Assembly: GCA_017480195.1 (NCBI GenBank)
Contig: JAFVBE010000045.1
Coordinates: forward strand, 1-34,861
DNA length: 34,861 nt
Direction of reading: 5' to 3'
DNA from: Lachnospiraceae bacterium
GTDB taxonomy: Bacteria > Bacillota > Clostridia > Lachnospirales > Lachnospiraceae
Of the stretch, positions 16,948 to 34,861 are shown one piece after another. How positions within the stretch are numbered: the stretch's first letter is position 1; the number at the start of each line of letters is the position of its first letter. A program made the translations under genes and the position numbers. The notes beneath the pieces were generated by a model that saw only the letters and a list, made by a program, of their open reading frames with translations, was not told where the DNA came from and ran no database searches.

Positions 16948-17214
16948 ATGCGAACATCCGAATCACTTTTTTTAAAAAATAACGAAGAATTAGTAATCAA
17001 TACTGAAACAATAGAATTAGAAGAGCAAATCCGCCGTCTTCTTGTATATACAAGATTATCATGCAATATGACTCAAAAGCAGCTTTCAGAAAAATCCGGT
17101 ATACGACAGTCAAATATAAGTCGTATTGAATGCGGTAGCTGCACACCTACACTTGAAACACTAAAAGAACTTGCGTCAGCTATGGACAAACAAATTAAAA
17201 TAGAATTTATATAA
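16948..17214 (+). CDS. Xre-family helix-turn-helix protein, antitoxin candidate
   Basis: The 88-residue DNA-binding protein has a Cro/C1-type helix-turn-helix at about 27-82 (LLVYTRLSCNMTQKQLSEKS, then GIRQSNISRIECGSCTPTLE) and a short N-terminal extension. AAGGAG lies 6 bases before the ATG. It is the first gene of a two-gene operon with a PD-(D/E)XK-like nuclease 34 bases downstream, behind a consensus promoter overlapped by a palindrome. Small Xre proteins in that setting are commonly antitoxins that bind the toxin and repress the operon. The antitoxin role is inferred from context. Confidence 0.85.
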   Translation: MRTSESLFLKNNEELVINTETIELEEQIRRLLVYTRLSCNMTQKQLSEKSGIRQSNISRIECGSCTPTLETLKELASAMDKQIKIEFI

Positions 17215-17248
17215 TCAAAGCTATTAAACATACTTAGGTAGGTACATT

Positions 17249-17635
17249 ATGGAAAAAGGATATATAGACACTTCTCAATTAAGCACTCCGCCAGAGAATC
17301 ACGAATTAGAAACAGCGAAGTTTTTTGCTGATTTAGGAAAAAATATAATATTTATAAATCCCATTAATATTAAAGGAACTCATACTCCTGATATTATAAT
17401 GGATGGTGTTGAATGGGAAATAAAAAGTCCAACAGGGAGTAGCAAGCATACAATCGAAAACAATTTTCGTAATGCTATTTCGCAATCTAAATATATAATA
17501 TTTGATTTAAGAAGAATAAAATTACCTGAAGCACATTGTTTATCGAGACTTGAGTTTGAATTTAAGTTACGCAAATATTTGAAAAGATTACTAATTATAA
17601 AAAAAGACAACTCTTTAATTGAAATAAAAAAATAA
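17249..17635 (+). CDS. small PD-(D/E)XK-like nuclease resembling CdiA C-terminal tRNases, toxin candidate
   Basis: The 128-residue product has the motif order of a PD-(D/E)XK nuclease. Glu19/Glu21 lie in an early helix (HELETAKFFADLG), then P47-D48 (THTPDIIMDG), then E57-x-K59 (EWEIKS), then a helix with a conserved Gln (NAISQSKYIIFDLRR). This pattern recalls CdiA-type toxin tips that cut tRNA, but here it stands alone, without a secretion domain. The ribosome site (TAGGTAGG) is weak. It pairs with an upstream Xre gene, suggesting a toxin-antitoxin role. A restriction or repair nuclease is an alternative. A hairpin and T run follow. Confidence 0.6.
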   Translation: MEKGYIDTSQLSTPPENHELETAKFFADLGKNIIFINPINIKGTHTPDIIMDGVEWEIKSPTGSSKHTIENNFRNAISQSKYIIFDLRRIKLPEAHCLSRLEFEFKLRKYLKRLLIIKKDNSLIEIKK

Positions 17636-31587: not shown

Positions 31588-32964
31588 TTAAAATAAATCC
31601 TGATATGGATCCTCTAAATATCCACTGATGTCCTTCTTAACTGTCAAAAAATTATAATAATATAATATTGATGATGCACAACCGGCACTGCCGTGATATA
31701 GCCCTGTCCACGCCTCGACCTCATTTGGAAGATGTCGGTTCCATGCTGTGTACCAGCGTCGTTTTCCATCATCTGTATTCGAATCGCCAATCAGGACATC
31801 TACAGCAGACTTTGCAGCATCCTTATATTTGTCATCCTTTGTCAATTGATAAATTTCCAAAAAATGTTCAACCATACCTGCCGCACCACAACAATAACAA
31901 TATGTATGCCAATATCCCTTTGAATGTTTTGTCGGTGCACCGGCTGCCAATATTCCATCAGTTAATCTTATAATCCATTCTTTATAAATTTCTTCTCCCG
32001 TAAGCTTATACAACTTATAAAATAATCTCGAATGTCCTATAGGACCCTGACATAAACCAAGATAATGCATCTTAGGAACATATGGGTCATTATATCTTAT
32101 AAGTGCTGCCTTTCCGTCAGGTGATACATCTGCTATTTTTCTTATATAATTAGCCGCCTTTCTTGCAAGTTCCAGATATCTTTCATTACCTGTATGTTCA
32201 AAAAGCTTCGCCATAATATAGCCACTTCCCGCTGCGCCATAGAAAAAACCCGGAAAAAATCCATTCTCACCTAATCCAAATGCAACCGAATCCATAGCAA
32301 GCCATCTTGCTGTATCATCAGTCTCCTCTGCTTCACCGGAAATTCTTTTTCCTGCACTATCTGCCGCCACAAGATAATTCTTATCACCAAGCTTCTCATA
32401 CAGCCATATTAGATACAGTACCAAGCCTCCATCAGCAAGAATACTGCATACATCACTCCAGTAACCACCATTCTCATCTTCCTTTTCTTCCTCAATTAAA
32501 ATCCTGGTAGTTTCCTTTGTATAAGTAAGATATTTATCATCACCTGTACTTTCATACAAAAGGTATGATACATAGGAACTTCCTACAGGTCCATCCATAA
32601 TACCAATCGGTATTCCTTTTAATGTTCCTTCTCCGAGATTTTTATATACATCTCTTCCAATGTCTCTGCCTATGACAAAATCAATGCCTGCCTTTGCTTT
32701 ATTCAGATACTTCTCTTCACCGGTTACCTGATATAATCGTAAGAAGAATAATGCAATCCCCGAAGCGCCACCATATAAACCACTAATTGATGTTAATGTT
32801 GCAGCTTCATCGGTTTCTTTTCCCGGGAGCACTTCCCAAAAGATTCCATTAGTATCAATATGCTCATAATCACTTATCCAATCTGCCGTTTCAATAACTG
32901 CTTTAAGATAGTCTGACGGGAGCTTATCATTAAATTCTTCTAACCATGATACCGTATCTGACAT
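31588..32964 (-). CDS. LanC-like (lanthionine cyclase-like) alpha-toroid protein
   Basis: The 458-residue protein has seven repeats of the LanC double alpha-barrel, each with a Gly-rich turn: YGGASG, MDGPVG, ADGG, YGAAGSG, CQGPIG, CCGAAG and YHGSAG. Zinc ligands of classical LanC are Cys, Cys and His; here the matching places appear to be Cys305 in LCQGPIG and Cys358-Cys359 in YCCGAAG, so a Cys may replace the His. It is cytoplasmic, with no membrane segment. GGAGG is 7 bases before the ATG at 32964. It heads an operon with a cysteine-synthase-like enzyme, without a LanB or LanM dehydratase. A glycosidase-like or thiol-adding role is possible. Confidence 0.75.
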   Translation of the reverse strand: MSDTVSWLEEFNDKLPSDYLKAVIETADWISDYEHIDTNGIFWEVLPGKETDEAATLTSISGLYGGASGIALFFLRLYQVTGEEKYLNKAKAGIDFVIGRDIGRDVYKNLGEGTLKGIPIGIMDGPVGSSYVSYLLYESTGDDKYLTYTKETTRILIEEEKEDENGGYWSDVCSILADGGLVLYLIWLYEKLGDKNYLVAADSAGKRISGEAEETDDTARWLAMDSVAFGLGENGFFPGFFYGAAGSGYIMAKLFEHTGNERYLELARKAANYIRKIADVSPDGKAALIRYNDPYVPKMHYLGLCQGPIGHSRLFYKLYKLTGEEIYKEWIIRLTDGILAAGAPTKHSKGYWHTYCYCCGAAGMVEHFLEIYQLTKDDKYKDAAKSAVDVLIGDSNTDDGKRRWYTAWNRHLPNEVEAWTGLYHGSAGCASSILYYYNFLTVKKDISGYLEDPYQDLF

Positions 32965-33172
32965 AATCATTCCTCCCTTCGCTTAGAATATATATTTATT
33001 TTTTCCTACCATTTAAGTATGAATTATTACATAAGGGATTGTAGCACGCTATTAATTTTTTTTATAATCTTATTTAGTTATAACTGATTATAGATAAAAG
33101 ATATAACCATAATAATTATAGGCATAATATATAAAACATCTTCACATACTATCCAAAAATGAGAGGTGAATT

Positions 33173-33337
33173 ATGAAAATAACAGATAAAAATATTCCGG
33201 TTAAAACTATACCAAAAGGAGTTTGGGAAGCAGACCACCCGGACAATGATTTGCAGCATAAAAATCAGAACAGTGCACTAAGTCCTTCCACAGATTTACA
33301 GGGCAATGGATATCCTGACAGCAGACAGAACAAATAA
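33173..33337 (+). CDS. 54-residue peptide ORF, divergent from the LanC-like operon
   Basis: The short frame starts at an ATG with GAGAGGTG about 5 bases upstream. The product is hydrophilic, with the N-terminal part MKITDKNIPVKTIPKGVWEA and a Ser/Thr/Asn/Gln-rich rest (NSALSPSTDLQGNG), and has no Cys. Its 3' end overlaps, in another frame, a decayed integrase tail. It may be a small peptide partner of the LanC-like operon or a chance frame at an old recombination junction. The good ribosome site keeps it worth listing. Confidence 0.4.
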   Translation: MKITDKNIPVKTIPKGVWEADHPDNDLQHKNQNSALSPSTDLQGNGYPDSRQNK

Positions 33338-33446
33338 AAGAAAGTTAATGGGACATTCACAAGTTTCTACAACTCTTCATTATCTTTGTAATGTAGATAA
33401 AGATAATGATAGCATAGAAGCATTTGAACACTTGGGGTTATGTTAA
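33306..33446 (+). pseudogene. tyrosine recombinase (integrase) C-terminal remnant A
   Basis: In this frame the DNA encodes MDILT, then RKLMGHSQVSTTLHYLCN and a tail ending EHLGLC before TAA. The LMGHSxVSTT block followed by a Tyr is the C-terminal signature of phage-type tyrosine recombinases. The N-terminal domain and the upstream catalytic Arg box are absent, so it is only a remnant. It ends 50 bases before the first copy of the tRNA-Leu-derived 64-bp repeat, the usual place of an integrase next to its att site. Confidence 0.7.
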
Positions 33447-33496
33447 TAATAAAAAGGTGTTCAAAAGTGTTCAAAATTTGAAAAAAATAAAAAGCA

Positions 33497-33560
33497 GCTC
33501 AAGCCCAGATAAATCAAGGCTTGAGCCACTTTAAAAAGTATGCCGGCGACCGGAATCGAA
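33497..33560. repeat. attachment-site copy 1 (tRNA-Leu 3' end duplicate)
   Basis: These 64 bases are identical to 34484-34547. They contain the last 20 bases of tRNA-Leu (33541-33560) and its terminator stem (33497-33527), but the remainder of the tRNA is absent here. This is the expected distal att site of an element integrated into the tRNA gene. Confidence 0.85.
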
Positions 33561-33657
33561 TTAATCGCCAGTAACAGAATATTAGATAGATAGGGGGTTT
33601 CTGACTGCTTCGTCATAAAAGTTAACCCTAATGTTAACCCCTATTATTGAAACATCA

Positions 33658-34176
33658 TTACTTCTTTTCATTATATTTCTTACACTCATTTTCCATCCTA
33701 ACAAAGTCCAAGCACTGGCTTCTTGCTGAAAAATATTTTTCGGATACATAATTGCTATATAGAACATTTGCTGTATTACATAGCTCTACCAAATGTTCAT
33801 TACACCATGATAATTCCTTAAATAATAATTCCTTCTTCTTTCTTGTTCGAGAATCATCGTGTGTTCTTATTTTAACATCTATTTCTTTTATCTGCTTATC
33901 TTCAACAGGAATCATGAGATTAAAGTTTAAAACACCTAATAATTGACCATCTTTTTCAATTTTCTTAAAATCAATCTTATTACGCATTTTCTTATGTTTA
34001 TTTTTAGGCTTGGAAAGTGGAACACAGTATTTTTGATTATTACATATCACAATAACTCCAAGAAATGGTCGCTCATCTTTTCCTGTCTGAGGAGAAACAG
34101 ACAAAACTCTATCATCAATTCTATGTAAATTTCGTATATATTTCATATCTATTTGATACAATTTAAGTTCTTTCAA
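33658..34176 (-). CDS. ToxN/AbiQ-family endoribonuclease toxin (type III toxin-antitoxin)
   Basis: The product of about 172 residues matches the ToxN/AbiQ/CptN pattern: an early YQIDMKYIRNLHRIDDRV, then DERPFLGVIVI, the basic PLSKPKNKHKKMRNKIDF core, and LLGVLNFNLMIPV. These toxins cut RNA and are held inactive by a small repeated antitoxin RNA encoded just upstream; several abort phage infection. No ATG is well placed at the 5' end. A TTG at 34176 with TGAG and GGAG upstream gives the usual family length, and an earlier TTG lies at 34203. The gene lies between att-like repeats and is probably mobile cargo. Confidence 0.8.
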   Translation of the reverse strand: MKELKLYQIDMKYIRNLHRIDDRVLSVSPQTGKDERPFLGVIVICNNQKYCVPLSKPKNKHKKMRNKIDFKKIEKDGQLLGVLNFNLMIPVEDKQIKEIDVKIRTHDDSRTRKKKELLFKELSWCNEHLVELCNTANVLYSNYVSEKYFSARSQCLDFVRMENECKKYNEKK

Positions 34177-34200
34177 AATTTTCTCAACTCCTATAATAGA

Positions 34201-34226
34201 CAAGGGCTATGTTGCCATAGCCCTTG
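34201..34226 (-). terminator. hairpin between antitoxin RNA and toxin gene
   Basis: CAAGGGCTATG and CATAGCCCTTG make a perfect 11-bp stem, with a GCAA tetraloop on the minus strand. A leaky terminator between antitoxin repeats and toxN is a constant feature of type III systems and sets the RNA-to-toxin ratio. The T run after the stem is poor, in keeping with partial read-through. Confidence 0.7.
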
Positions 34227-34293
34227 AATGTAGTGTCACCGTAGCGACTCTAACGCTTTTTTATGCGTCCACTTGTCGGCAGGACTCTCCATC
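34204..34293 (-). ncRNA. candidate ToxI/CptI-type antitoxin RNA
   Basis: The region between the promoter and the hairpin before the toxin gene is non-coding and about 90 bases long. It contains two degenerate units of 37 bases (34288-34252 and 34251-34215, minus strand). Each begins AGAGTC; matching parts include GTGGACGCAT against GTGACACTACAT and an A-rich end. The second unit can form GUCGC-UACG-GUGAC. Unit length and position fit type III antitoxins, which have 2 to 5 pseudoknot repeats of about 35-45 bases. The divergence between the units is greater than usual. Confidence 0.5.
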
Positions 34294-34469
34294 AATTTCA
34301 TTATAACTATTCCTCAACCAAAGTCAAGACCTATTTTAAATATAATGATATAAGAACGACTCAAAAAGCATATAATTATGATATTTTTGGTACAGAAGAT
34401 AAGGCTCAAGCAATTAAAGACTTCGAGGTCGGAAAGATAATGTTAACCCCATGTCACCCCCAATCTTGA
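34263..34469 (+). pseudogene. tyrosine recombinase C-terminal remnant B
   Basis: The frame encodes YNDIRTTQKAYNYDIFGTED, then KAQAIKDFE and a short tail. The DIxTTxxxY pattern fits the last catalytic Tyr region of a tyrosine recombinase, although the preceding GH box has decayed. Its 5' part overlaps the antitoxin RNA and its promoter on the other strand, so the ATG at 34263 is not meaningful. It ends 14 bases before att copy 2. Confidence 0.45.
34300..34327 (-). promoter_or_regulatory. promoter of the type III toxin-antitoxin locus
   Basis: On the minus strand TTGACT (34327-34322), a 16-base spacer and TATAAT (34305-34300) form a strong promoter with a start near 34293, directly before the antitoxin repeats. 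Confidence 0.72.
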
Positions 34470-34482
34470 GTTGGCAAAAAAA

Positions 34483-34514
34483 GGCTCAAGCCCAGATAAA
34501 TCAAGGCTTGAGCC
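34483..34514 (-). terminator. terminator of the tRNA operon
   Basis: GGCTCAAGCC and GGCTTGAGCC form a 10-bp stem, followed on the minus strand by TTTTTTT. It lies 13 bases after the 3' end of tRNA-Leu. Confidence 0.88.
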
Positions 34515-34547
34515 ACTTTAAAAAGTATGCCGGCGACCGGAATCGAA
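34484..34547. repeat. attachment-site copy 2 (at intact tRNA-Leu)
   Basis: This 64-base unit is identical to 33497-33560 and spans the last 20 bases of the intact tRNA-Leu plus its terminator. The two copies delimit a 987-bp unit carrying the type III toxin-antitoxin locus and integrase remnant B. Confidence 0.85.
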
Positions 34548-34613
34548 CCGGTACGGGAGATTAGTCCCGCAGGATTTTAAGTCCTGTGCGTCTGCCAGTT
34601 CCGCCACGCCGGC
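34528..34613 (-). tRNA. tRNA-Leu (anticodon TAA)
   Basis: The acceptor stem is GCCGGCG with CGCCGGC and discriminator A. The anticodon arm CAGGA-CTTAAAA-TCCTG gives TAA. A long variable arm (about 34551-34569) and a GGTTCGATTCC T arm mark a class II leucine tRNA. CCA is not encoded. Its 3' 20 bases are duplicated at 33541-33560. Confidence 0.95.
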
Positions 34614-34641
34614 AAATTTGGAACAATATTTAATTGTTTAG

Positions 34642-34829: not shown

Positions 34830-34861
34830 AGCCGACGATCGGAATCGAACCGATAACCTGC
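34830..34861 (-). tRNA. partial tRNA at window edge, probably Thr
   Basis: Only the variable region, T arm (ATCGG-TTCGATT-CCGAT) and 3' acceptor strand (CGTCGGC, discriminator T) are present. The AGGTT variable loop resembles clostridial tRNA-Thr, but the anticodon lies outside the window. Confidence 0.6.

Follow-up and report, generated by a model that had tools for sequence, protein, structure and literature searches.

A ToxIN-like operon with a one-unit antitoxin RNA in what looks like an integrase-less cassette at a Lachnospiraceae tRNA-Leu gene

Results

The locus

The window analysed here (34,861 nucleotides, contig JAFVBE010000045.1 of a Lachnospiraceae bacterium) contains, close to its right end, an intact tRNA-Leu gene with the anticodon TAA and a gene of the ToxN/AbiQ family that is bracketed by two copies of the end of this tRNA gene (Table 1). 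The direct repeat covers 72 nt at 96% identity and includes 64 exact bases, with starts that are 987 apart; the exact part combines a terminator-like hairpin with the final 21 nt of tRNA-Leu(UAA), and the right copy forms the end of the intact gene. A 19-mer of the tRNA part and a 32-mer of the hairpin part are found at both repeat sites, where shuffles expect 0.00; the hairpin 32-mer has 1 mismatch at its edge in the left copy, and the 19-mer has one more match with 2 mismatches inside the next tRNA (34831-34849). The sequence-only reading of this DNA had described an exact 64-bp repeat around a ToxN/AbiQ-like gene at an intact tRNA-Leu, and repeat and gene are located exactly there. In the tRNA-proximal copy, the hairpin is stable (-22.1 kcal/mol, z -5.4), and it is absent from the list of our terminator scan, which had a loop limit of 8. 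As a T run stands behind the hairpin of the right copy, it would terminate the tRNA transcript.

Table 1. Features at the tRNA-Leu locus; coordinates refer to the window.
Feature	Position	Strand	Basis
Tyrosine-integrase C-terminal remnant, from an older element	33306..33446	+	likeness to G019 integrase
Arm-like sites of the older element (TTTTGAACAC twice)	33456..33476	-	word comparison
Distal attachment repeat, exact copy of 64 bp	33497..33560	-	repeat comparison
Body of the putative integrase-less cassette between the attachment repeats	33561..34483	.	repeat, arm comparison
Distal arm-like sites (AGGGGTTAACATTAGGGTTAAC)	33621..33642	-	word comparison of ends
ToxN/AbiQ-family toxin, 172 aa, TTG start	33658..34176	-	Pfam, PADLOC, PDB matches; AlphaFold2
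Intrinsic terminator between antitoxin and toxin	34201..34226	-	11-pair stem
Second antitoxin module, hairpin H2, UACG loop	34231..34252	-	covariation; fold
Single ToxI-like unit (possible pseudoknot)	34267..34291	-	alignment, reading
Promoter-like site TTGACT-16-TATAAT of the toxin-antitoxin operon	34300..34327	-	11/12 consensus matches
Possible C-terminal remnant of an integrase of the cassette itself	34344..34400	+	weak match to G017 integrase
Proximal arm-like site (GGGGGTGACATGGGGTTAACATTA)	34438..34461	-	word comparison of ends
Attachment repeat at the tRNA, 64 bp (21-nt end of tRNA-Leu, terminator-like hairpin)	34484..34547	-	repeat comparison
Intact tRNA-Leu (UAA), target gene	34527..34614	-	tRNA detection; Rfam tRNA

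The toxin gene is the sole ORF of more than 70 aa within the cassette body, where domain scans covered the toxin and the right-hand tail described below. It matches Pfam ToxN_toxin (E 9.5e-43), PADLOC AbiQ (1.7e-30) and ToxN of PDB entry 4ato (2.7e-14), and the four best PDB folds for its AlphaFold2 model (pLDDT 88.2, pTM 0.83) are those of ToxN (4ato, 2xd0, 7d8o) and AbiQ (4glk). The identity proposed from the letters has therefore passed the profile check, and the ToxN-family toxin expected of a ToxIN system is present. Translation likely starts at TTG 34176 and not at TTG 34203, because AGGAG precedes the former and the latter sits in the terminator. The active-site residues of E. coli ToxN are Lys33, Thr52, Ser53 and Lys55 (PMC8860590; this and the other articles cited by accession were available in part), and the positions aligned to them hold Arg, Ser, Lys and Lys in the window; because of the Lys at the catalytic Ser53 position, toxin activity is not assured. 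The nearest named relatives, at 73%, come from Lachnospiraceae metagenome bins. A phage origin of the toxin was discarded, as its relatives (E up to 1e-5) occur in 2 phage versus 56 plasmid records, all at <60% identity; a scan of IMG/VR, limited in its reach to close relatives, gave no match.

The antitoxin RNA

The putative operon consists of a near-consensus promoter, one ToxI-like unit, an A-rich linker, the hairpin H2, a terminator and the ToxN gene, in this order. The promoter scan gave 10 promoter-like sites versus 4.6 expected, among which the site of the operon scores best, and similar sites precede the unit in many relatives (by eye). The terminator scan gave 1 terminator-like site versus 0.7 expected by chance, and the terminator stem is present and covaries in an alignment of 13 sequences (A1). 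By these consensus scans, the single upstream promoter and the terminator between antitoxin and toxin that are expected of ToxIN are in place. An antitoxin in form of a tandem repeat array, which is a further criterion for ToxIN (PMC5086642), is absent; a single unit is followed by H2, and we therefore call the locus a variant and not a canonical ToxIN. ToxIN/AbiQ antitoxins have 2.8, 2.9 and 5.5 repeats according to the available text of PMC5086642 and 3 to 5.6 repeats in E. coli (PMC8860590), which gives a span of 2.8 to 5.6 repeats across these articles and PMC12373285; in case of antiQ, 0.8 unit was inviable, and 1.8 units were functional (PMC5086642). The sequence-only reading had named no antitoxin, and the one found here is unusual. 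With Rfam, the region matches no antitoxin family at E up to 5. The layout of one unit plus H2 is common to many relatives, other relatives have at least 2 repeats, and the genome of the window itself has a second ToxIN with three repeats at C29.

Conservation of the RNA was assessed in an alignment (A4) of 41 antitoxin sequences, 37 of them distinct, which were chosen for matching the RNA model or looking one-unit. The search behind it gave 45 matches, some of them multi-repeat loci, and L068 (28.5 bits) and L147 (19.9 bits) were left out. In A4, which was fitted to a model containing H2 and hence is biased towards it, the 8 pairs of H2 are formed in 96.9% of the cells, and both sides have changed in 6 of these pairs among the 37 distinct sequences. 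Covariation of the whole structure amounts to 0.455; shuffles give 0.168 +/- 0.015, and sliding the structure gives no more than 0.113. In the possible pseudoknot of the ToxI-like unit, the second stem is paired in 92.5% of the cells and nearly invariant, while the first is paired in 80.2%, its third pair being UA or CG in 17/37 and non-standard in 20/37 sequences, including the window. Folded in isolation, H2 appears as drawn; folded as a whole without pseudoknots, the window antitoxin favours a different long pairing over H2. RNAalifold, when applied to the first MAFFT alignment of 13 sequences, drew a pairing of AGCG with CGCU and not H2. Such a pairing, by which H2 would become a second pseudoknot, gave no covariation signal on A4 and was dropped.

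Could this be an ordinary ToxIN with a shortened array? In such a case, three transcripts, cleaved in the A-rich linker, would still provide the units of the usual 3:3 ring, and H2 would only stabilize the RNA or insulate the terminator. The linker AAAAGCG ahead of H2 resembles, by eye, the junction AAAAGCGGTGAG of multi-repeat relatives, and at least one complete repeat is essential for the activity of ToxI in vitro (PMC12373285, in its available part), which both agree with this explanation. On the other hand, H2 covaries, and of the 24 one-unit toxin loci in the tree described below, 22 have it in A4, while it is based on a fold at L068 and on reading at L147; as it is kept by covariation and present across one-unit loci, it is not mere decay. 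It also did not prove to be a diverged second ToxI repeat, since most of 13 sequences show nothing of this kind, and we do not claim such an origin; the H2 of the window aligns well with the last units of two multi-repeat relatives (17/1000 and 13/1000 shuffles as good), worse with three other units, and with its own unit no better than 889/1000 shuffles. We regard the shortened array as a real possibility that falls somewhat short of even odds.

A collapse of short-read repeats during assembly, which might have generated the 64-bp repeat or the single unit, is highly improbable. The 2.4 Mb source genome is 84.7% complete with 5.5% contamination and 63 contigs, and a motif that occurs repeatedly in their kin is present as a single copy in L082 and L145, but the DNA flanking the two repeat copies differs on each side, three-repeat arrays were assembled in similar genomes including this one, and H2 is positioned between unit and terminator in many genomes.

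Some one-unit antitoxins stand alone. No ToxN gene is found behind L152, L155, L161, L164, L166, L180, L061 and L074, and at L074 the antitoxin and its terminator are followed by a gene for a 287-aa protein. The genome of the window has a second one-unit antitoxin (L179, G000:C41:39692-39752), also with no ToxN behind it, which by eye lies behind an apparent transposase fragment.

Toxin tree and distribution

A tree was calculated from 47 toxin proteins (L157 was dropped from the 48 chosen, and partial, broken and near-copy toxins were excluded), with antitoxin types assigned by reading and L082, L140 and L145 unlabelled. In this tree, which is rooted by midpoint only and contains several multi-repeat rows on long branches, the 24 one-unit toxins are on one side of a branch (89/98) and the 20 multi-repeat toxins on the other. 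The label requires one change, a number reached by 0/500 label shuffles, and the one-unit branch recurs in 88% of the bootstrap trees, with a support below the 95 mark. The Ser53-aligned position is K, R or H in 12/24 one-unit versus 2/20 multi-repeat toxins (counted by eye).

The RNA model matches 28/397 genomes of the family at E up to 0.001 and reaches at least 36 bits at 24 places in 21 of the 397, the own genome included, in searches whose filters miss weak matches, as in all our large genome searches. In a sample of the class that includes family members, 6/391 genomes match, two of them from the same family. The four matches outside the family are weak: one belongs to a ToxN preceded by a multi-repeat array, and the other three are chance-like, have no ToxN nearby and were rejected.

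Cassette ends and integrase remnants

Within the window, a 13-bp arm-like word is present at just the two ends of the cassette (1 mismatch allowed), with 0.05 expected. By eye, the arm-like word GGGGTTAAC of the cassette occurs also at both ends of an element in G017, TTTGGAACC at the element ends in G019, TTTGGTGCA at those in G001, and TTTGAACAC at both ends of a cassette in G009 as well as in the older remnant of the window. The longest word common to both ends was matched in length by 0/500 letter shuffles for the window, 1/500 for G017, 2/500 for G009 and 1/500 for G001; for G019 the test was non-significant (29/500), and there the longest common word is not the arm-like word.

Two tyrosine-recombinase tails had been proposed beside the repeats, and they fared differently. 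The left tail shares 65% identity over 34 residues with the C-terminus of the intact G019 integrase, at a score (115) that 0/500 shuffles reach, and it alone gives PHROG 216 (integrase) at E 0.025, so this remnant is well founded. In case of the right tail (34263-34469), likeness is confined to about 34344-34400, aligned with residues 384-403 of the G017 integrase; the score of 36 is weak (6/500 shuffles as high, and 176/500 against the G019 integrase), and the initial part of this frame runs antisense to the antitoxin RNA. Pfam and PADLOC gave no integrase match for either tail.

Relatives at the same tRNA-Leu

The query DNA matches 35/37 genomes of the genus, largely through tRNA genes. The exact 19-base pattern of the tRNA end is found in 22/37 genomes, the own genome included, and in 2-3 copies in five of these (own genome 2, G001 2, G009 3, G017 2, G019 2), and the tRNA likeness of the six extra copies begins at the T-loop TTCGA or two bases earlier. 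The repeat thus is not common to all relatives, and complete elements with intact integrases exist beside the same tRNA: a 6.4-kb element with a 413-aa integrase in G017 and a 4.3-kb element with a 447-aa integrase ORF in G019 (Phage_integrase E 2e-13 and 9.6e-20). In G001 and G009, the cassettes at this tRNA are integrase-defective. The 990-bp cassette of G001 has no integrase among its listed ORFs, and short stretches close to both of its repeats resemble the left tail of the window; the 2.9-kb cassette of G009 has a 43-44% identical ToxN between two tRNA-end copies and a truncated integrase. Terminators were considered as a marker of the crossover, but no side could be assigned; G019 and G017 each have two differing copies, and those of the window, G009 and G001 are the same or almost so.

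Other cargo was noted at this tRNA. At L061 of G009 (798-1440), a PIN-domain gene (Pfam E 5.9e-18) and a small gene upstream of it, further toxin-antitoxin-like cargo, are flanked by an additional copy of the tRNA-Leu end on one side and by the toxin-less antitoxin on the other, and the 4.3-kb element of G019 carries a gene with a long internal tandem repeat (L057, 3710-4455).

The left flank of the locus matches G009 at about 85% identity as far as 33277. G009 then has 23 bp in place of 33278-34170, followed by a counterpart of 34171-34341 at 92%, and its toxin frame ends after five codons, which leaves an antitoxin without toxin. As the left flank is joined there to a toxin-less antitoxin, the ToxIN unit probably predates the divergence of the two species. 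The comparison of the genomes gave no clean orthologous empty site, which the sequence-only reading had suggested looking for, and this junction in G009 is the nearest comparison. To the left of the locus, the window has a LanC-like gene (31588-32970; Pfam E 1e-24) and, divergent and upstream of it, a 54-aa ORF (33173-33337); homology of this ORF to G009 stops after its first 36 residues, which are 89% identical. Elsewhere in the window (16948-17635), a small helix-turn-helix-like gene is followed by that of a 128-aa protein resembling, as an impression only, a contact-inhibition-type nuclease.

Discussion

We propose, with a probability of roughly 75% for the reading as a whole, that two integrative elements, both decayed, lie in tandem at the 3' end of tRNA-Leu(UAA), and that the inner one carries a ToxIN-like cargo with a one-unit-plus-H2 antitoxin. 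The outer element, left of 33497, would be reduced to about 220 bp, and the inner cassette would have lost its integrase while both attachment repeats and arm-like sites were kept. It is the comparison with the element ends of G001, G009, G017 and G019 that makes an integrase-less element with kept ends the best reading of the cassette, and the bracketed DNA resembles a CIME in that both attachment sites remain and the genes for integration and transfer are gone. The comparative data fit the idea of the sequence-only reading that integrations at one tRNA-Leu were serial, that integrases were lost and that a ToxN-type gene was retained. Because repeats and arm-like sites persist, a related tyrosine integrase could still move the cassette in trans.

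It is somewhat unlikely that the cassette is an immobile relic, long fixed, with repeats that are passive scars and a toxin pair kept by chance or addiction. Such a relic would agree with the lack of an integrase and with an eroding locus, as seen from the toxin-less antitoxin in G009 and from the 9/41 A4 antitoxins that have no ToxN, but identical repeats and matching arm-like words at both ends speak against it. Moreover, in G009, 288 bp that comprise the repeat, the arms and part of the truncated integrase recur with 99.3% identity at the contig end, beyond the distal repeat. Such a second copy would be expected if the integrase-defective element had moved recently, or the stretch may represent reads of an excised circle in the sample; a plain duplication may also be the cause. 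There is also a point against the proposed tandem of decayed elements: simple old decay does not predict that the two 64-bp copies are identical while the flank differs by about 15% from that of the antitoxin-keeping relative G009. Conversion, re-integration or constraint may be the cause.

How would the cargo function? The RNA ending at the terminator would outnumber the read-through toxin mRNA, and the ToxI-like unit would bind and block the endoribonuclease ToxN. When this short-lived RNA is lost, for example when a phage halts host transcription, the toxin would be freed, and a role of the pair in phage defence may follow from this. H2 most likely would substitute for the missing repeats, either by shielding the 3' side of the unit or by contacting the toxin. 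In a bolder version, which we consider unlikely, unit and H2 together constitute a distinct class of type III antitoxin, a self-contained inhibitor that acts at about 1:1 with ToxN and needs neither repeat processing nor ring assembly, so that the system fits cassettes of about 1 kb that hop between tRNA-Leu sites by means of integrases of others. A one-unit or non-repeat class of type III antitoxins was not described in the literature searched, as far as available (preprints and most subscription journals were outside its scope). A toxin branch with array-less antitoxins would be a clear test of what the repeats do, and the locus suggests a route by which small defence or addiction modules can pile up behind one tRNA without an integrase of their own.

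Comparison with known systems

The mobile side of the locus is of a known kind. As in CIMEs and accretion at tRNA 3' ends (PMC5704250, in its available part), attachment sites are kept, integration genes are lost and elements stand in tandem, whereas the cassette of the window is only about 1 kb long, has arm-like sites at both ends and carries a toxin pair alone. With AbiF and its ncRNA RCd22 of C. difficile, the locus shares an Abi-type toxin and a short structured RNA upstream; AbiF differs in being an Abi_2-family toxin with another RNA motif, of which there are two per RNA, uncleaved between them (PMC12373285), a distinction that is drawn by description. ToxIN/AbiQ is similar in its ToxN-family toxin and fold, in the order of promoter, antitoxin RNA, terminator and toxin, and in the ToxI-like unit, and the differences are that the window has one unit and a covarying hairpin in place of tandem units, and a Lys at the Ser53 position of the toxin.
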